Source of the DNA: Gaiellales bacterium
Lineage (GTDB): Bacteria; Actinomycetota; Thermoleophilia; RBG-16-64-13
Length of the DNA: 37,636 nucleotides
Assembly (NCBI GenBank): GCA_012719395.1
Contig: JAAYAL010000070.1
Coordinates: 1 to 37,636, forward strand
Reading direction: 5' to 3'
Of this stretch, positions 1 through 32,169 are shown in pieces. The translations under genes were made by a program, and so were the position numbers. The first letter of the stretch is position 1; every line of letters starts with the position of its first letter. The notes under the pieces are model-generated. The model was given only the letters and a program-made list of their open reading frames with translations, did no database searches and was not told where the DNA came from.

Positions 1-276
1 ATCGATCAGGCGACCGTTGTTCGTTTTGAAGCGGGAAGCATCTTTGCTCCCCATCCGGACAAGCTCTCCAGAGTCGCGAAGGCCCTCAGCTTGAGCGGCG
101 CCGATGTCTATGCTCTGGCCGATTACCTGGTCCCCACAGACCTCCCCTCGCTCAAACCGTATCTGATAACCAAATACACCCGACTGCTCGACGAAGACAT
201 CAACAAGATCGAAGAGCTGGTTGCGAGACTTGCCAAGAAGCGAGGATTCAGCCTCGCAGATACGGACACCGGCTAA
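1..276 (+). CDS. XRE-type helix-turn-helix regulator, C-terminal part (cut by window edge)
   Basis: The frame is open from the first base and stops with TAA at 274-276, so the true start lies outside the window. The first visible residues (IDQATVVRFEAG, then KLSRVAKALSLS) match the recognition helix and last helix of an XRE/Cro-type DNA-binding domain. They are followed by a Leu/Pro-rich linker (VPTDLPSLKPYL) and a helical tail that I associate with regulators on actinobacterial prophages and integrative elements. The gene ends 37 bases before the start of a large serine recombinase on the same strand, so it is probably the element's own regulator controlling integrase or replication genes. 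The HTH assignment is firm; the control target is inferred from position. Confidence 0.75.
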   Translation: MDQATVVRFEAGSIFAPHPDKLSRVAKALSLSGADVYALADYLVPTDLPSLKPYLITKYTRLLDEDINKIEELVARLAKKRGFSLADTDTG

Positions 277-313
277 TGAATTAGTGCGCTTGTCGCAAGA
301 AAGGAGGGAGCAA

Positions 314-2116
314 ATGCCCAACACCACGTCAGTAGTAAACAGGAAACACGGTGATGGGCGCGGCGCGGTAAAAGCCCCCACCGATCAAGCGCGGGCGCTC
401 ATCTATCTGAGAGTATCCACCAAGGACCAAGCCGAGATGGGCGGCGAGGCCGAGGGATACTCCATCCCCGCCCAGCGCGCGGCCTGTACCCGCAAAGCCG
501 AGGCACTCCATGCCCTCGTCGAGGAAGAGTTCGTCGACCGGGGCGAGAGCGCCAAGACGGCTGATCGTCCAGAGTTGCTGAAGATGCTCCGGTATCTCAA
601 GGATCATGCAGTGGACTACGTAATCGTCCACAAGGTTGACCGCCTCGCCCGAAACCGCGCGGATGATGTGGCCATAACGCTTGCCATCAGGGAGAGCGGC
701 GCGGTGCTTGTGTCGTGTTCTGAGAACATCGACGAGACTCCCAGCGGCCTCCTGCTGCACGGCATCATGAGCTCGATTGCCGAGTTCTACAGCCGCAACC
801 TGGCAACAGAGGTCGCCAAAGGTATGCGGCAGAAGGCCAAGACCGGCGGCACTATCAACAAGTCGCCTGTCGGATACCGGCACATCAGACTGGTCGAAAA
901 CGGCCGAGAAGTCCGCACAGTCGAGCCCGACCCGGAGCGCGCCCCGTTCGTTCGGATGGCCTATGAGCTATACGCAACCGGAGAGTGGACACTCCGAGAG
1001 CTGCATCGCAAGCTCACAGAGATGGGCTTCACCTCCCGACCGGGACCACGTACGCCAGCCAAGACCCTCACTATCTCCGCGTTCCACAAGATGCTCATGA
1101 ATCCCTACTACGTCGGCGAGATCAGTTATGAAGGCGTTGCCTATCAGGGGTCGCATGAACCTCTGGTGGATCGAGAGTTGTTCGAACAGGTCCAAGCCGC
1201 CTTGATTGCCCACCGTCACGCCGGTGAAAAGCAGCAGAGCTACAACCACTACCTCAAGGGAAGCATCTTCTGCGGCACGTGCGGCAGCAAGCTGAGCGTC
1301 ATGAACCCCCGCAATCGAAAAGGGGTCAAGTATCACTACTTCTTCTGTCTCGGACGCCAGTACAACCGGCACAGCTGCACCCAGAAGGTCATGCCCATTG
1401 ATGAGGTCGAGCAGAAGATCGAGGAGCACTACCTGACCATCCAGATCGCGCCGGAGCGCATCGAACAGATCACGGGAGTACTAAGGGAGCTGCTCTTCGA
1501 TAGACGCGAGGAGGCAGAAGCAGCAGAGCATGTCGAGACGCTGCGGATGAACCGCCTGAGCAAGGAACGGGAGAAGCTCCTTCGCCTGCATTATGAGGAT
1601 GCGGTGCCTGCCGACCTATTCAAGCAAGAGATGCAGAGAATCACTCGCGAACTGGAGAACGCACGTCAGCAACTCGAAGTGGTCACGGTATCTTTCGACG
1701 CCATCGAGAGGAACGTGGAGAGGGCGCTCGATCTGGTCCGTGACTGCTATTCAGCCTACAAAGATGCAGACCCTGCCACCCGCCGACTCTTCAATCAGGC
1801 CTTTTTCGAGAAGCTGATCGTCTCCGACACCGGATGTGTTACCCATGAATTAGCGGAGCCGTTCAGGTTGCTCCTCGATCCTTCACTCCCCGACCGTCTG
1901 GAGCGAGAAGCAAAGCAGCAGGACAAATGGCGGCGCTATAAGGAGTCCAGAAATGCCGACGACCCGGAGATTCTCCGGGCCGGCGGTTCAAACTACGAAC
2001 TTATGGTGGGCCGTAGTGAATGCTCTTCGAACATGTTACCGGACGCCGACAGCCCGCTGAACGGGCCGATACTGAAGGCTCTTCGAAGGTCACCTAGCCT
2101 CGATACCGTGACCTGA
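314..2116 (+). CDS. Large serine recombinase (integrase) LSR1, chimeric C-terminus
   Basis: Site-specific recombinase of about 600 residues. The catalytic domain begins near residue 28 with YLRVSTKDQ, giving nucleophile Ser35 and Arg33, and carries VHKVDRLARN. A recombinase domain follows (about 200-305), then a zinc ribbon (CGTCGSKL ... CLGRQYNRHSC, about 345-385) and a long charged coiled coil. The ATG at 314 is preferred over upstream in-frame starts because AAGGAGG lies at 301-307. The family catalyses integration and excision between attP and attB. The last 34 codons (from 2012) do not resemble a normal integrase end. At 2003-2011 the gene contains ATGGTGGGC, identical to 6304-6312 at the tRNA-Val end. 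Joining the two yields a C-terminus MVGDTGLEPVTSAV with a stop at 6346-6348, suggesting the original 3' end was displaced by a second insertion. Function is sure; the history is inferred. Confidence 0.93.
   Translation: MPNTTSVVNRKHGDGRGAVKAPTDQARALIYLRVSTKDQAEMGGEAEGYSIPAQRAACTRKAEALHALVEEEFVDRGESAKTADRPELLKMLRYLKDHAVDYVIVHKVDRLARNRADDVAITLAIRESGAVLVSCSENIDETPSGLLLHGIMSSIAEFYSRNLATEVAKGMRQKAKTGGTINKSPVGYRHIRLVENGREVRTVEPDPERAPFVRMAYELYATGEWTLRELHRKLTEMGFTSRPGPRTPAKTLTISAFHKMLMNPYYVGEISYEGVAYQGSHEPLVDRELFEQVQAALIAHRHAGEKQQSYNHYLKGSIFCGTCGSKLSVMNPRNRKGVKYHYFFCLGRQYNRHSCTQKVMPIDEVEQKIEEHYLTIQIAPERIEQITGVLRELLFDRREEAEAAEHVETLRMNRLSKEREKLLRLHYEDAVPADLFKQEMQRITRELENARQQLEVVTVSFDAIERNVERALDLVRDCYSAYKDADPATRRLFNQAFFEKLIVSDTGCVTHELAEPFRLLLDPSLPDRLEREAKQQDKWRRYKESRNADDPEILRAGGSNYELMVGRSECSSNMLPDADSPLNGPILKALRRSPSLDTVT
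2003..2011 (+). repeat. Left copy of 9-bp direct repeat, candidate attachment core
   Basis: ATGGTGGGC here is identical and in the same orientation to 6304-6312, where TGGTGGGC is the antisense of the tRNA-Val 3' end (CCA, discriminator base and start of acceptor stem). In both places TACGAA lies just upstream: 1994-1999 with a 4-base gap, and 6299-6304 directly abutting. Both copies lie at the 3' end of a large serine recombinase gene, where such elements usually carry their attachment site. A 9-mer alone is weak evidence. The position and the restored reading frame strengthen it. Confidence 0.5.
2022..2087 (+). repeat. Pair of 10-bp direct repeats GCTCTTCGAA
   Basis: GCTCTTCGAA occurs at 2022-2031 and again at 2078-2087, 56 bases apart, each containing the palindrome TTCGAA. 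A small inverted repeat, CCCG ctgaa CGGG, lies between them around 2052-2064. The pair sits just inside the putative left end of the element, so it could be a recombinase or accessory-factor binding arm. No function can be shown from sequence alone. Confidence 0.35.
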
Positions 2117-2226
2117 ATGAAGTCCCATGCTGAATGAACAACCAACCGGCCGAAGCAGCGCAAAGACTGGTTAGGCGACTTCGAAGGAACCAGACTTGCC
2201 AGCCGAAAACGTTCCCCGCCGAGCGG

Positions 2227-3345
2227 TCAGGAGTCGCCGTCGCCGGACTCTTCCGCGTCTTCGTCGGCTTCTGCCCTCCCTGACAGGACCTCGGCCAGAG
2301 GCGTCCTTCGGACGGCTCTCAATTGAGCCATGAGAGTGTCGCCATATGGTGTGAGGGACCAATATGACTTCTTGTCGTGCACGCTGCGTTTTCTGAGGCT
2401 AGCTCGTATTAATCCCAAAGCACGCATCTGTATTATGCATGTGTCTACATCTTCGCCTTCAACCGCAAAGTTAAGTAATATGTTCTCTTTAAACTGATCA
2501 CTTCCATCGAAAGTCTCGTACCCTTTTCTTCTTACGTAGTCCTCTATGGCCTTCCGCAGAGTCGCATCGGTAGCTTCATCTATGATGCACGGGGCTACAG
2601 CAGCAAACAGCGCATTCCAGCTGACCTGAATTGTCCCTTGATAACGCTGATCTCCAGCAAACGGATTGCTGTCGTCGCGCTTGCGCGCGGTGAAGTTGAG
2701 ATGAATCGCGAAAACATCCTCGCCTGACGCCAGATCCTCGGTCCCAGCGGGGGGACGATCCCGAGCAGCGGCCGCGTCAGCTTCGAGTTCAGCAATGTGA
2801 TTCTTGAGTGCAAGGACGTCACTGAGCGTCGCGTCAGAGGGAACCGTGTCGGCTCGTACCCACCCGATTGCAGGATGGCGCTTTGTCTCCTTCGTCAAGC
2901 CTACAATGACGCGGGCCTTGAGGTCGTCTGCAGCTGACCAGTAGTCGCAAGTGTGCCTGCTCTCTATCTTCGAGCGGAATGCGGTCAGTTTTGCCCAAGC
3001 CGCCTCGTCGGTCTCGGTCTTATCTCGAGGTAAGTTGTCCGGATTCTTGTGAAGAAGCGGGATTACTGGCTTCTTTGCCGCGATAGCGTAGTCATATTCC
3101 TTCTCGGTGTAGCCCAGGCCAGCTTCGTCCAACGATCCATACTTCCCACCAATGATGAGCACGTAGTAGTCGGAGCTATCGATAACATCCTGGATAAGCT
3201 CCCAAGCGGAATCGTCTGCAGCGGGAAACAGCTCCATGCCCGCAGGCATATGATCGAGTTCCAAAATCGCTTTGAGGCCCGCCTGACGTTCCTCTTTGAG
3301 ATCAGAAAAAGTCGAGCTGATGAAGACTTGATACCGCTTATCCAC
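2227..3345 (-). CDS. DUF4062-domain protein, possible defence or signalling gene
   Basis: The 372-residue protein starts with GTG; TAGGAG lies 5 bases upstream on the coding strand. The first ~165 residues carry the DUF4062 signature: YQVFISSTFSDLKEER at the N-terminus, then DYYVLIIGGKYGS, YTEKEYDYA and KPVIPLLH. This is a TIR/SEFIR-like alpha-beta fold, known as the N-terminal module of some NLR-like and phage-defence proteins. An acidic linker follows. The C-terminal half (about 215-350) ends in a likely winged helix (CIIQMRALGLIRASLRKR ... YWSLTPYGDTLMAQL). No NACHT, NTPase or protease motif is visible. Its base composition is visibly more AT-rich than its neighbours, and it is the only minus-strand gene among the element genes, consistent with acquired cargo. 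The domain call is good; the defence role is inferred from context. Confidence 0.75.
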   Translation of the reverse strand: MDKRYQVFISSTFSDLKEERQAGLKAILELDHMPAGMELFPAADDSAWELIQDVIDSSDYYVLIIGGKYGSLDEAGLGYTEKEYDYAIAAKKPVIPLLHKNPDNLPRDKTETDEAAWAKLTAFRSKIESRHTCDYWSAADDLKARVIVGLTKETKRHPAIGWVRADTVPSDATLSDVLALKNHIAELEADAAAARDRPPAGTEDLASGEDVFAIHLNFTARKRDDSNPFAGDQRYQGTIQVSWNALFAAVAPCIIDEATDATLRKAIEDYVRRKGYETFDGSDQFKENILLNFAVEGEDVDTCIIQMRALGLIRASLRKRSVHDKKSYWSLTPYGDTLMAQLRAVRRTPLAEVLSGRAEADEDAEESGDGDS

Positions 3346-3594
3346 GGCGCTCCTACGGTTCGTTCAATGGACGTCTATCGTATCTCATTCCCAATATAGG
3401 ACCACTGACTGAAGGAGACAAACGCGATCCCACCTGAGAGGTTCTTCTGTCCGACCCCCTTGCTAGGCTCAGATAGCCTGCGGTGCGAGTCGTTCCGCTC
3501 CGCGTAAGAGACGCAAAGGGTGTGCCTATCCTTCAACTACAGGACGGCGGATTGCCCGGCTCCCCGACGACGCAGGACGTGCGGGGGAGAATGA
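3346..3594. other. Non-coding stretch between DUF4062 gene and Rep module; candidate replication origin
   Basis: No convincing gene is seen here. The left part is AT-rich and probably holds the promoter of the leftward DUF4062 gene. At 3459-3465 there is CTTGCTA, followed at once by a small hairpin (AGGCT 3465-3469, loop CAGAT, AGCCT 3475-3479). CTTG-type nick sites beside a stem-loop are typical of rolling-circle origins, and an HUH initiator is encoded about 370 bases downstream. This is suggestive only; the stem is just 5 bp. Confidence 0.3.
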
Positions 3595-3648
3595 AACTTC
3601 CTGAACCTGAACGACTGGCTTGTCCATGCGTTCAGGGGGTTCGCTCAG

Positions 3649-3849
3649 GTGGAGCAGCGAGGTGCACAGCGGGGGGATGCTCTCCGGCGCGCTCTTGCCG
3701 CTCGCGGTATCCGCCTCACGTCCGAGCAGGCAGACCGGCTCGCGTCCGACCTCCTCCGCCTGGCCGACCGCGGCTGCTTCGCCCCTTCGATGCCAACCGG
3801 CCATGAACGTCACGAGGCGCAGCCTCGGCAGCGAAGCGGGCAGCGATGA
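3649..3849 (+). CDS. Small ORF coupled to the Rep gene; possibly frameshifted at its 5' end
   Basis: The frame stops with TGA at 3847-3849, overlapping the Rep ATG (3846) as ATGA, which suggests translational coupling. From the GTG at 3649 it gives 66 residues with a helical, plausible core (RRALAARGIRLTSEQADRLASDLLRLADRG). The same frame is open back to 3595 and reads NFLNLNDWLVHAFRGFAQ, which looks genuine, but no start codon is available there. An ATG at 3591 with a purine-rich GGGGGAGA just before it is out of frame by one base. Deleting one A at 3594 would give MNFLNLNDWLVHAF and an 84-residue protein. The gene may therefore carry a frameshift or a sequencing error. No family is recognised; a copy-control or DNA-binding role would be a guess. 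Confidence 0.45.
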   Translation: MEQRGAQRGDALRRALAARGIRLTSEQADRLASDLLRLADRGCFAPSMPTGHERHEAQPRQRSGQR

Positions 3850-4796
3850 CGGACGCGGGCGCATCGGGCGCAGGGCAGGGGGCCGGGCGCAACGGACCCG
3901 GGAGCGGCGGCAGACGCAGAGGGGCCGGCGCAGCCGGCCTTGGCTTGTCTGATGCACATATCTCGGGAAACGAGCGCCGGACGGGTAGCGTCCACGCGGT
4001 CACCCACCGCAACGGCGAACTGGTGCAGGTGAAGGCGCGGGGCGGCTCCGTCGGTGGTGGCGGCGGCCAACGCGCCAAGATCGCGGGCTTCAGTCGACAG
4101 TCACGCCGACGGCTACTCTACCTGCTGGCCTCCATCGACCAGGAGGCTTCGGGGCTGCCGCGATTCGTCACCCTCACCTACCCGGGGAAGGATTGGGAGA
4201 GCTACGCGACGAACATGAAGCGTCACCTGGACAACTTCCACCGCTGGCTCACCTACCACCATCCCCGCGCATCCGCCATCTGGCGCCTGGAGATGCAGAA
4301 GCGCGGCGCGCCTCACTTCCACCTGCTCGTCTTCGGTGTGGCCTTCCTGGACTGCCTCCGCGTGGCGGAGACCTGGTGGCACATCGTGGGATCGGGGCAG
4401 GAGTCCCACCTTCAGGCCGGGACCCAGGTGAAGGGCTGCAGCAGGTGGCGCGAAGCTACCAGCTACATGGCCAAGTACATGGCCAAGCCTCAAGAGGATG
4501 CGGCCGAGGTCCACGAGTTGTGGAAGCTGCCAGGGCGCTTCTGGGGCGTCTGGGGCGATAAGAACCTGCCGGTCTACCCTGAGTACTGGTCGCTGACCTA
4601 CGAGGCCGCTGTGCGGTTTCGGCGCATCCTCAGAGGGCATGCCAAGAGCCGCGGCTACCGGCTGCGGGGTGGGCTCTCTGTCACCTCCTTCCTGCCGCAA
4701 GCGGCAGCCGAGCGCGCGCTGCGCTTCTGCCAGGCCCACAAAGTGCCCCTCTCGACCCAGAACACGCGACCGGCCGAGAGCGAGAGGCGGCTATAG
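3846..4796 (+). CDS. HUH-type rolling-circle replication initiator protein (Rep)
   Basis: 316 residues. A Gly/Arg-rich, probably disordered N-terminus (about 1-95) precedes a Rep domain with the three classical motifs in order: motif 1 RFVTLTYPG (~106-114), the HUH metal-binding motif GAPHFHLLVFG (~154-164) and the catalytic-Tyr motif ATSYMAKYMAK (~204-214). Such proteins nick the plus strand at an origin and start rolling-circle replication. The gene overlaps the preceding small ORF (ATGA). Its TAG shares a base with an upstream GTG of the recombinase frame, so the three genes look like one transcript. In integrative elements such a Rep maintains the excised circle. It could alternatively act in strand processing for transfer, but no relaxosome or coupling gene is visible. 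Family assignment is strong. Confidence 0.85.
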   Translation: MTDAGASGAGQGAGRNGPGSGGRRRGAGAAGLGLSDAHISGNERRTGSVHAVTHRNGELVQVKARGGSVGGGGGQRAKIAGFSRQSRRRLLYLLASIDQEASGLPRFVTLTYPGKDWESYATNMKRHLDNFHRWLTYHHPRASAIWRLEMQKRGAPHFHLLVFGVAFLDCLRVAETWWHIVGSGQESHLQAGTQVKGCSRWREATSYMAKYMAKPQEDAAEVHELWKLPGRFWGVWGDKNLPVYPEYWSLTYEAAVRFRRILRGHAKSRGYRLRGGLSVTSFLPQAAAERALRFCQAHKVPLSTQNTRPAESERRL

Positions 4797-4822
4797 TGGG
4801 TGCAGCGGCGGAAGGAGGAGAC

Positions 4823-6334
4823 GTGGCGGAGAGCGGCACCCAGCCCGGCAAGCGCACCCAGTGCGTCATCTACGCACGGGTTTCAACCAAAGAGCAGCAG
4901 GAAGAAGGCTACTCCATCCCTGCCCAGCTCAAGGCGGTGCGCGCCTTCTGCGACAAGGAAGGGCTGGAGCCGGTGGAGGAGTTCGTGGAGGCACAGAGCG
5001 CGGGCAAGGCGGGGCGCAAGGGCTTCGGTCGCATGGTGGCCTTCTTGCGGGAGCAGTCTGAGGTGCGGGTGGTAGTGGCACATAAGCTCGACCGCCTGTA
5101 TCGCAACTTCGCCGATCAAGTGCGCCTGGAGGAAGAGCTGGGCATCCGCGCCCGCTACGTGGTGGGAGACGTGCCTGCCTCACCCCAGGGCGAGCTCCTC
5201 CGCGACGTGCAGCTCTCGGTGGCCAAGTTCTACCTGGGCAACCTGCGCGAAGAAGTCAAGAAGGGCATGGAGGAGAAGGCCTCGCAAGGGGGCTGGGCCA
5301 CGGGCCGCGCGCCGCTCGGCTACGTGAACGACAAACGGGCGCGTCGGCTGGTGGTCGATCCGCTGCAGGCCCCGTTCGTGCGTCACGCCTTCGAGCGCTA
5401 TGCCACGGGCTTGGTGTCCCTCGGCGATCTGGCCGACGAACTGCACGAGCGGGGCCTGCAGCATCTTCGCTCGGGGCACAAGGTGCACAAGAGTTCGCTC
5501 CACCTGCTGCTCCAGAACCCCGTCTACTGCGGTTTGATACGGTACAAGAACAGACTCTACCGGGGTCAGCACGAGGCCATCATCAGCCCGGAGCTCTTCG
5601 AGCGTGTGCAGCGAACCTTCGAACCCAACCGCAACGGCAACATGGAGCAGCGGCACCTCTTCGCGCTTCGTGACTTCCTCTGGTGCGGCGACTGCGGCTG
5701 CAAGATCACAGCGGAGCGCCACCGTGGCCACGTCTACTACCGCTGCACCAAGGGCAAGGGCAAGGAAGCCTGCTCCCAGCGAAGCTACAGCCGGGAAGAG
5801 GACCTCATGGAACAGGTGGAGCAGATACTGGCCTCCATTGAGATCGGGCCGGACCTCATCGCCGCTCTGGTGGAAGAGTCCCGCCTATTGGACCAAGAAG
5901 CACAGCAGGGGAACGACAGAGAGCGGGAAAGCCTCGAACGCGCCATCGGCGAGAACGACCGCAAGGCGGGTCGACTACTCGACAGCTACTTGGAGGGGAT
6001 CGTCGATGCCGATACCTACCGGCGGAAGGCCGAGGAACTGTCGCGTGAGCGATTCACTTTCGAACAACGTTCGGAGGCCTTAGCAAACCCGACTTCAGAG
6101 AGAACTGCCTGCGTAGAGGAACTAGCCAAAACTGCAGCATCGGCTCGCATTCGATTCACAGGCGCTTCGGTACAGGAGCAGCGAGAAGTGCTTGCGACAG
6201 TACTTTCGAACGCAACCCTGCAGGACCAGGAACTTGTCGATTTCCAGCTAAAAAGCCCCTACGAAGTCCTGGTGAAAGACTCCGAAGGGGCCTTATGTTA
6301 CGAATGGTGGGCGATACTGGACTTGAACCAGTGA
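4823..6334 (+). CDS. Large serine recombinase (integrase) LSR2, ends inside tRNA-Val
   Basis: About 503 residues. The catalytic domain opens with VIYARVSTKEQQEEGYS (nucleophile Ser in RVST) and continues with AHKLDRLYRN. The recombinase domain contains LLQNPVYCGLIRYKN. The zinc ribbon is CGDCGCKI ... YYRCTKGKGKEACS, followed by a charged coiled coil. GTG at 4823 is preferred because AAGGAGG lies at 4812-4818; another in-frame GTG at 4796 overlaps the Rep stop. The last ten codons (YEWWAILDLNQ) are the antisense of the tRNA 3' end, and the TGA (6332-6334) lies in the T arm. The gene and its attachment site are therefore fused, and excision would change the C-terminus. It presumably integrates and excises the Rep-bearing element. 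It shares fold and motifs with LSR1 but is clearly divergent. Confidence 0.93.
   Translation: MAESGTQPGKRTQCVIYARVSTKEQQEEGYSIPAQLKAVRAFCDKEGLEPVEEFVEAQSAGKAGRKGFGRMVAFLREQSEVRVVVAHKLDRLYRNFADQVRLEEELGIRARYVVGDVPASPQGELLRDVQLSVAKFYLGNLREEVKKGMEEKASQGGWATGRAPLGYVNDKRARRLVVDPLQAPFVRHAFERYATGLVSLGDLADELHERGLQHLRSGHKVHKSSLHLLLQNPVYCGLIRYKNRLYRGQHEAIISPELFERVQRTFEPNRNGNMEQRHLFALRDFLWCGDCGCKITAERHRGHVYYRCTKGKGKEACSQRSYSREEDLMEQVEQILASIEIGPDLIAALVEESRLLDQEAQQGNDRERESLERAIGENDRKAGRLLDSYLEGIVDADTYRRKAEELSRERFTFEQRSEALANPTSERTACVEELAKTAASARIRFTGASVQEQREVLATVLSNATLQDQELVDFQLKSPYEVLVKDSEGALCYEWWAILDLNQ
6304..6312 (+). repeat. Right copy of 9-bp direct repeat at the tRNA end, candidate attachment core
   Basis: ATGGTGGGC; bases 6305-6312 are the complement of the tRNA-Val 3' end. 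It matches 2003-2011 in the same orientation. Integration here would rebuild an intact tRNA, as seen for many tRNA-targeting elements. The exact crossover cannot be placed from a single window. Confidence 0.5.
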
Positions 6335-6379
6335 CTTCTGCCGTGTGAAGACAGCGCTCTCCCTCTGAGCTAATCGCCC
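6305..6379 (-). tRNA. tRNA-Val (anticodon CAC), CCA encoded
   Basis: The complement folds into a full cloverleaf of 75 bases. The acceptor stem is GGGCGAT/ATCGCCC, the D stem GCTC/GAGC, the anticodon stem CTGTC/GGCAG with loop TTCACAC (anticodon CAC, reads GUG), and the T stem ACTGG/CCAGT with loop TTCAAGT. The discriminator is A and CCA is encoded. The tRNA is intact although a mobile element abuts its 3' end. The 3' 30 bases overlap the recombinase LSR2 coding sequence in antisense. Confidence 0.96.
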
Positions 6380-6392
6380 GCTGGAGAGGCAA

Positions 6393-6421
6393 ATGTTAGC
6401 AGGAATGCCCCTTCCTTGCCA
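6393..6421 (-). promoter_or_regulatory. Possible promoter of tRNA-Val
   Basis: On the minus strand TAACAT (6398-6393) matches the -10 box at 4 of 6 bases and lies 13 bases before the tRNA 5' end. TGGCAA (6421-6416) lies 17 bases further upstream as a weak -35. Spacing and distance are right for a primary-sigma promoter, but the matches are modest. Confidence 0.35.
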
Positions 6422-30492: not shown

Positions 30493-32169
30493 TCAGAGGT
30501 GCAATTTCTCGATGGCCTGTTGGCGGATCCTGAACTTCTGCACCTTGCCGGTGACGGTCATGGGGAACTCGTCCACCACCATCCAGTAGCGCGGCACCTT
30601 GAAGTACGAGATCTTGCCCCGGCACATCTCGCGGAATTCCGCCGCCGTCGGTTCAGCGTAACCCTTGCGGAGCTTGACACAGGCCAAGAGCTCCTCACCC
30701 ATGCGGGCGTCAGGCACTCCCACCACGTAGACATCAGAGAGCATGGGCAGTTCGTGCAGGAAGTCCTCGATCTCCCGCGGATAGATATTCTCCCCACCTC
30801 TGATCACCAGGTCCTTGATGCGTCCGGTGACACTCACGAACCCGTCGTCATCCATGACCCCCAAATCTCCGGTGTGGAGCCAGCGGGCCCTGTCGACGAC
30901 GGCCTGCGTCGCCTCCGGCCGGCCATCGTAGCCCACCATGACGTGGTAGCCACGCACGCAGATCTCGCCCTGTTGGCCCCGAGGCAGCGTCGATCCCCCG
31001 CCCACGCCGGCGATCCTGATCTCTTGGTGCGGCAGGACCTTGCCCACCGTGGAGATCCTCGCCTGGAAGGGGTCCCCCGGCATGGTGAGCGTGCACAACG
31101 GCGCCGCTTCCGTCTGCCCGTAGCCGATCTGGATACCGCTCAAGTGCATCCGCTCCACCACCGCCTTCATCAGCGACACGGGGCAGGGCGCTCCAGCCAT
31201 GATGCCGGTGCGCAGCGAACTCATGTCGAAGGACGCGAAATCGGGATGCTCCAGCTCGGCGATGAACATGGTGGGAACGCCGTGCAGGACGGTGCAGCGC
31301 TCCTCAGTCACCGCGCGCAGCACCGCCCCCGGCTCGAACACCGCCGAGGGCAGCACCTGTGTGGCGCCCACGGACACGCAGAGCAGGCTGCTCAGCACAA
31401 TGCCGAAGCAGTGATAGAAGGGCACAGGGATGCACATGCGGTCCTGGGAGGTCACGCCCAGTGCCAGCGCCACCTGATGCCCGTTGTTGAGGATGTTGTG
31501 GTGGCTGAGCGTCACCCCTTTGGGGAACCCGGTGGTGCCGGAAGTGTACTGGATGTTGATGGGGTCGTCGTAGTCCAGGTCGGATTCGCGCTCCTGCAGC
31601 GTGTCAACCGCCGCCTGTCCCGCCAACTCCACCACCCGGCTGAGGCTGTGCATACCCTCGTAGGCGCCCTCACCGATGACCACCACACGCTCCAGCTCGG
31701 GCAGCGCGGCGGAGCGGACGCGACCGTCCTCGGCATCGCCCACCTCCGGACACACTGAGCGCACCATGGCCAGGCAGTCGGAGGTCTTGCAGAACTCGGC
31801 CGAGAACAGCACCTTGGTCTTGGATTCTTTGAGCACGAACTCCATCTCGCGCTCGCGGTAGGCGGGGTTGATGGTCACCAGCACCGCCCCCACGCGCGCG
31901 CAGGCGTACTGCACGGCGATCCATTCCCAGCAGTTGGGGGACCATATGGCCACGCGGTCCCCCTGCTTCACGCCCAAGCCGAGCAGCGCCCGCGCCACCC
32001 GATCAACTTGGTCATCCAGGGCCGCATACGTCAGCCTCACACCCTGGTGAAGGCTGACCACGGCTTCGCGTTCAGGATGGGCACGCGCCACGCCCCTCAG
32101 CCATTCGCCGATGGTGACGCCCAGCAGGTGAGTCAGGGAGGGGCAGTGCTCGTAACTGAGACGTCTCAT
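30493..32169 (-). CDS. AMP-forming acyl-CoA synthetase
   Basis: 558 residues from ATG 32169; GGGAGGG lies just upstream, so an earlier GTG-type extension is not used. Activates a carboxylic acid to its CoA thioester with ATP. Signature motifs in order: P-loop [40 protein letters not shown], hinge [18 protein letters not shown] and C-terminal catalytic Lys in [12 protein letters not shown]. The pattern resembles medium-chain or FadD-like ligases; the acid cannot be named. It follows the BadH-like dehydrogenase by 45 bases and probably shares its promoter and MarR control. Confidence 0.93.

Follow-up and report, generated by a model that had tools for sequence, protein, structure and literature searches.

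Two elements that carry large serine recombinases (LSRs) very probably used the 3' end of one tRNA-Val(CAC) gene in succession in a Gaiellales bacterium (assembly GCA_012719395.1, contig JAAYAL010000070.1). The window analysed here is the whole stretch of 37,636 nucleotides, read on the forward strand. A sequence-only reading of this DNA had proposed that one recombinase gene, LSR1, formerly adjoined the tRNA gene and was displaced by a second element, whose recombinase is called LSR2. Pfam analysis revealed Resolvase, Recombinase and Zn-ribbon domains in one protein each, all above the cut-offs and therefore of the large type, in agreement with the two serine recombinases claimed within 6 kb. 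The features of the junction are the following, G010 being a related genome described below:

314-2011, + strand: LSR1, the outer (older) element's large serine recombinase (Pfam Resolvase, Recombinase, Zn_ribbon_recom; start at 314 or 353), lacking its original tRNA-encoded tail.
2003-2011, + strand: attachment core ATGGTGGGC, left copy, marking the left end of the inner element (repeat scan, G010 alignment).
2012-2116, + strand: present tail of LSR1, translated from the left end of the inner element and not original.
6304-6312, + strand: right core copy, at the antisense 3' end of the tRNA (ARAGORN, repeat scan, G010 alignment).
6305-6379, - strand: tRNA-Val(CAC), the target (ARAGORN), with its antisense T-loop TTGAACC at 6323-6329 and G at +20.

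This stacking is settled by comparison with a relative and not by the statistics of the repeat. The best relative of LSR1 was found in G010, a genome of another genus in the same family (record JAJFUK010000136.1), where a single unbroken stretch matches window positions 1-2011 with 89.8% identity and leads straight into tRNA-Val(CAC), beyond which lies a P-type ATPase gene resembling that of the window. In G010, the segments that match window 1-2011 and window 6304-6411 share exactly these 9 bp of the core, and the alignment breaks at 2011/6304. The G010 orthologue of LSR1 (94% identity over residues 1-550) ends as MVGDTGFEPVTSAV* within tRNA-Val(CAC), and the inner element is absent there; a relative with a DTGLEPVTSAV-type ending beside tRNA-Val, of the kind that the earlier reading had suggested seeking, was thus recovered. 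When position 2011 of the window was joined to 6313, the predicted frame was reproduced: LSR1 reads on as MVGDTGLEPVTSAV, the frame closing with ...NYELMVGDTGLEPVTSAV and a stop at 6346-6348, while the present frame ends at 2116.

The 9-bp direct repeat was located at both of the claimed positions, 2003-2011 and 6304-6312 on the + strand, and the antisense CCA end of the tRNA falls within it; a scan of the window revealed a third copy at 30931-30939 on the - strand. The chance expectation was 0.68 copies per window and three copies were reached in 2 of 100 shuffles, and the repeat on its own is therefore weak evidence. That a 9-mer repeat is not rare in the window would suit an arrangement in which the repeat is coincidental, the present tail of LSR1 has been there from the start and the recombinase genes came to adjoin each other independently; this is extremely improbable, given that the break in the G010 alignment falls precisely on the repeat and the alignment enters the tRNA, that the left arm is common to a sister element (see below), and that the present tail is kept by no homologue among those seen. 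The sequence-only reading had named a homologue keeping this C-terminus as the case against it, and none was found.

The chromosomal flank on the ATPase side was only 71-76% identical between G010 and the window, against 90% for LSR1, and the LSR1 elements therefore probably entered the two genomes separately. As judged from these alignments, G010 displays the architecture predicted for the window but is not necessarily its direct ancestor, and a search of the window genome for the island of G010 found none. At the far end of that island (G010:C83, L037 17585-17728) are the final 144 bp of another LSR1-type gene, which precede the island arm as a further case of stacking, and type I restriction genes lie within the island. 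Upstream of LSR1, the small gene at window 1-276, also kept in G010, resembles a helix-turn-helix regulator on visual inspection; Pfam gave no match for the portion present, the contig beginning inside the gene.

The second element is composed of the following features:

2004-2032, + strand: P' arm of its attachment site (attP), TGGT N18 TTCGAAC, T-loop-like, with G at +25; the same in the sister element.
2227-3345, - strand: cargo gene for a DUF4062 domain protein (phrog_15411; Pfam PF13271, 99 bits; PHROG E 1.5e-97).
3445-6303, + strand: module common with the sister element, comprising leader, Rep and LSR2 (75.8% nucleotide identity over 3445-6381).
3846-4796, + strand: rolling-circle replication initiator (Rep), start uncertain (Pfam PF23343 REP_ORF2-G2P, 57.8 bits; 78% to the sister's Rep).
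4823-6334, + strand: LSR2, recombinase of the inner element (Pfam), its final codons inside the tRNA (tail YEWWAILDLNQ*, stop 6332-6334).

Comparative evidence indicates that this inner element is about 4.3 kb long, with its left end near 2004 and GTGGGC as its core, because a sister element in the window's own genome shares the left arm and the module. The sister (G000:C73, L035 10001-14350) lies between tRNA-Val(GAC) and thrS, which are adjacent and insert-free in genome G003 and apparently also in G001 and G010. The left arm GTGGGCCGT..TG..GGCTCTTCGA.CA and the Rep-LSR2 module are common to both copies, while the cargo differs (the DUF4062 protein in the window versus a sub-threshold TerB-like protein in the sister). 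The claims of a 4.3-kb inner element and of an LSR1 tail that belongs to it after 2011 are both borne out by this shared arm. It might be supposed that 2003-6312 is part of one island bearing two co-arrived recombinases, or that the inner element carries LSR1 as cargo, the two genes lying within 6 kb in the same reading direction; however, LSR1 occurs without the inner element in G010 and the inner module without LSR1 at C73, and such an origin is highly implausible.

Rep contains the HUH (HFH) and YxxxY (YMAKY) motifs, and for LSR2 a start at GTG 4823, behind GGAGGAG, is more likely than one at 4796. When Rep was used as a marker, 399 genomes of the class yielded only the two copies of its own genome and three weak matches, and 396 genomes of the phylum only three distant ones; elsewhere there were distant matches to small actinobacterial plasmids and none in a further collection of genome contigs. 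LSR2 had a single distant match in viral contigs. A separate question concerns the nature of the inner piece and not its stacking, namely whether it is a provirus or satellite of a filamentous phage (inovirus) instead of a plasmid-like integrative element. The G2P-type Rep, a sole phage-record match to an Inoviridae record (36%) and the fact that phage phiRSM1 targets a tRNA-Ser gene with a serine recombinase (PMC3218068) point in that direction. Against this, the element holds just three sizeable genes, Pfam detected no coat or Zot-like gene among the main open reading frames (ORFs), small coat ORFs not having been searched exhaustively, and the sister has unrelated cargo in the same slot; a phage origin is accordingly regarded as unlikely. 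The DUF4062 protein is a possible defence cargo, and no PADLOC model matches its gene.

According to the proposed sequence of events, the outer element would have integrated first, leaving LSR1 to end within the tRNA (DTGLEPVTSAV). The 4.3-kb element, with its DUF4062 cargo, rolling-circle Rep and LSR2, would then have integrated by recombination inside GTGGGC, at the end of the tRNA gene, which would have moved LSR1 4.3 kb away and swapped its tail for the left arm of the newcomer, so that the tRNA acquired as its new neighbours LSR2 and the terminator-like hairpin contained in the final codons of that gene. Rep would presumably multiply the excised circle. The successive use of one site is directly supported, at the level of sequence, by the unsplit junction of the relative, both ends of the inner element, its sister, the tRNA-ended tails of the LSR1 family and the fixed position of a T-loop motif.

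Two terminator-like hairpins were observed on the strand of the tRNA:

6252-6294, - strand: hairpin for tRNA-Val, inside the 3' end of LSR2 (RNAfold z -4.5; sister -6.5).
1956-1986, - strand: hairpin in the 3' end of LSR1, terminator-like for its former tRNA neighbour (RNAfold z -3.2).

The LSR2 hairpin lies within the last codons of the gene in both copies and would be expected to terminate tRNA transcription, so that inserts appear to carry in their own tRNA terminator. Scans with terminator consensus models were negative in the window and gave no enrichment in one cassette array (arrays are described below), probably because the T runs are taken up into the hairpin stems; when six array junctions were folded, z was -2.6 to -3.8 in four and weak in two. 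At C73, a hairpin resembling the native terminator of the tRNA is now displaced to the far side of the insert. Short stretches resembling LSR2 or LSR1 3' ends, hairpin included, were also observed beside element-free tRNA-Val genes (G003:C25, L039 2579-2640; G002:C73, L070 5123-5191), and these may be scars of past inserts or a source of ends.

Analysis of the LSR1 family revealed that approximately 35 of 42 loci end within a tRNA or transfer-messenger RNA (tmRNA) gene on the antisense strand, consistent with the earlier description of the joined tail as a type seen on tRNA-targeting recombinases. The targets are tRNA Val, Ala, Arg, Lys, Met, Glu and Pro and tmRNA, close sisters differ in target (tmRNA versus tRNA-Ala), and members with such ends also occur in Aeromicrobium, Frankia, Pseudofrankia and one Acidimicrobiia genome. 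With positions anchored on the CCA end (TGGT = 0 to 3), the motif [AG]GTTY[GA][AG] was found at exactly -19 in 32 of 37 loci, against a background of 0.001 per base. In the window this is represented by one feature:

1985-1992, + strand: T-loop mimic GGTTCAAA in the 3' end of LSR1, left half-site, at positions -19 to -12 relative to the TGGT core, as in the family.

On this positional evidence, the -19 motif in the last codons of the recombinase is a T-loop mimic that faces the antisense T-loop of the tRNA (G at +20). In the far arms of G010-LSR1, window LSR2 and C73 LSR2, which were defined by comparison and not by pattern, TTYGA occurs with G at +25, so that the motif lies 5 bp farther from the core in attP than in the tRNA, in the right arm only. 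In LI integrase, the zinc-domain motif is likewise shifted by 5 bp between attP and the attB site, being nearer the centre in attB (Rutherford et al., PMC3783163), and this shift is matched by LSR1 (G010), LSR2 and the C73 sister. By inference, it is the zinc domain that recognises the T-loop motif, placed at +20 in the tRNA and at +25 in attP; T-loop recognition as a general rule is considered reasonably probable. A search for the attP arm in named Actinomycetota with relatives gave chance-like matches only, save the G010 arm.

Several points weigh against the account given so far. The genomes compared are draft assemblies, from which excision of the element can only be predicted, and the contig starts at the 5' side of LSR1, which leaves the other end and the remainder of the outer element outside view. 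Integration at an occupied tRNA would join attP with a hybrid P/B' site, a non-canonical substrate for serine integrases. The left arm of LSR2 itself lacks the GTTC mimic and has AAGGGGC instead. Finally, the mimic sits in conserved codons (GSN/GLN), so that protein constraint could account for part of its conservation. The stronger form of this last objection, that the GTTC motif in LSR 3' ends reflects protein conservation only and is no binding site, draws on the fact that most members have it in frame, at equivalent codons; yet the residues vary (GSN, GLN, GLS, SFS) while GTTY persists, and the P' arms and array junctions have the same motif at matching distance, for which reasons the purely coding explanation is held to be unlikely.

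The arm pattern TGGT N18 TTYGAAC was also searched in other genomes. In f6, another genome family of the class, it had up to 18 matches per genome, whereas the reversed pattern had none in most of those genomes, and across 11 genomes the N18 spacer gave 56 matches versus 0-19 for the remaining spacers of N15-22; most matches outside f6 look like chance. Many f6 matches formed oriented arrays terminating at a tRNA or tmRNA gene: six cassettes precede the tmRNA of G057 (L156, G057:C1:82000-100000), where no LSR1- or LSR2-like gene was detected in 18 kb, and further arrays were found at tRNA-Ala, tRNA-Met and tRNA-Val (L157-L163, L165, L181-L199). In total, 34 cassettes of 766-3847 bp were delimited, those larger than 4.5 kb being left out of the count. 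A hairpin arm, TGGT as core and the pattern TGGT N18 TTYGAAC are present at each array junction, and the arm opposite the searched motif, outside the pattern, is conserved as AAAAAATGCCTT..AAGGCAT. The cargo includes HicAB, ParE/Phd, RelE/HTH, nucleotidyltransferase and immunity-type genes, with toxin-antitoxin genes in many cassettes, and related cassettes occur in differing neighbourhoods and at differing tRNA genes. The tmRNA of G032 is the site of an autonomous island, roughly 19 kb in size, that shares its arm with the tmRNA cassettes, and no array arms were found in viral contigs. At L163, L165 and other array ends, stacking needs attP and a hybrid P/B' site, which is unexpected for standard serine integrases.

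A serine recombinase presumably moves the f6 cassettes in trans. By a narrow preference, we favour the interpretation that a T-loop-recognising LSR lineage builds integron-like arrays of small, mostly recombinase-free cassettes, trans-mobilised by autonomous elements. Each cassette would then be bounded by a T-loop-mimic arm on one side and by a tRNA terminator on the other, with successive cassettes stacked at the tRNA or tmRNA 3' end, and the LSR1/LSR2 stack of the window would represent the same rule with two members; both corollaries are put forward with the same slight leaning. Literature searches, from whose scope preprints and most subscription journals fell outside, found nothing on serine integrases and the T-loop together and nothing on serine-recombinase cassette arrays at tRNA genes.

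Use of tRNA genes by serine recombinases has been called rare (PMC3218068) and stated as not known (PMC4383910), unlike the family described here, which targets them routinely. The stack of the window is itself a variation on the known theme of tandem islands; it is the T-loop rule and the cassette arrays that are surprising for specialists. If true, the rule would explain the switching of targets among close relatives (tRNA-Val, Ala, Met, Pro and tmRNA), would describe integrases able to find their target motif in most bacterial genomes, and the arrays would represent a second, non-integron path to cassette arrays.

In tandem tRNA islands (Islander; tandem actinomycete integrative and conjugative elements, AICEs, at tRNA-Lys and tRNA-Arg), a newer island likewise enters beside the tRNA, displaces the older one and restores the target. 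Those islands have tyrosine integrases, which are part of the Islander definition, and longer identity blocks, whereas both recombinases near the tRNA here are of the serine type by Pfam, with a core of 6-9 bp. SCCmec and the Enterococcus cassette chromosome (Ccr at rlmH) are alike in having a large serine recombinase, a gene-end target and complex or composite elements, but their target is a protein gene, their recombinases are Ccr proteins and no Rep module is noted there (PMC6222049), in contrast to the Rep module here; Ccr family models scored far below the cut-offs on the recombinases of the window. AICEs of the pSAM2 type share the combination of a rolling-circle Rep and an integrase at a tRNA gene, but are marked by an FtsK/SpoIIIE-type Tra, whereas no such transfer gene occurs in the 4.3-kb element, whose main genes are DUF4062, Rep and LSR2, and its Rep belongs to a different Pfam family (PF23343). 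Integrons resemble the f6 arrays in their small oriented cassettes, many with toxin-antitoxin genes and common to arrays in new neighbourhoods, but are defined by the tyrosine recombinase IntI with attI/attC sites; the f6 sites are of another kind, tRNA and tmRNA ends that bear T-loop mimics, and would be served by a large serine recombinase.

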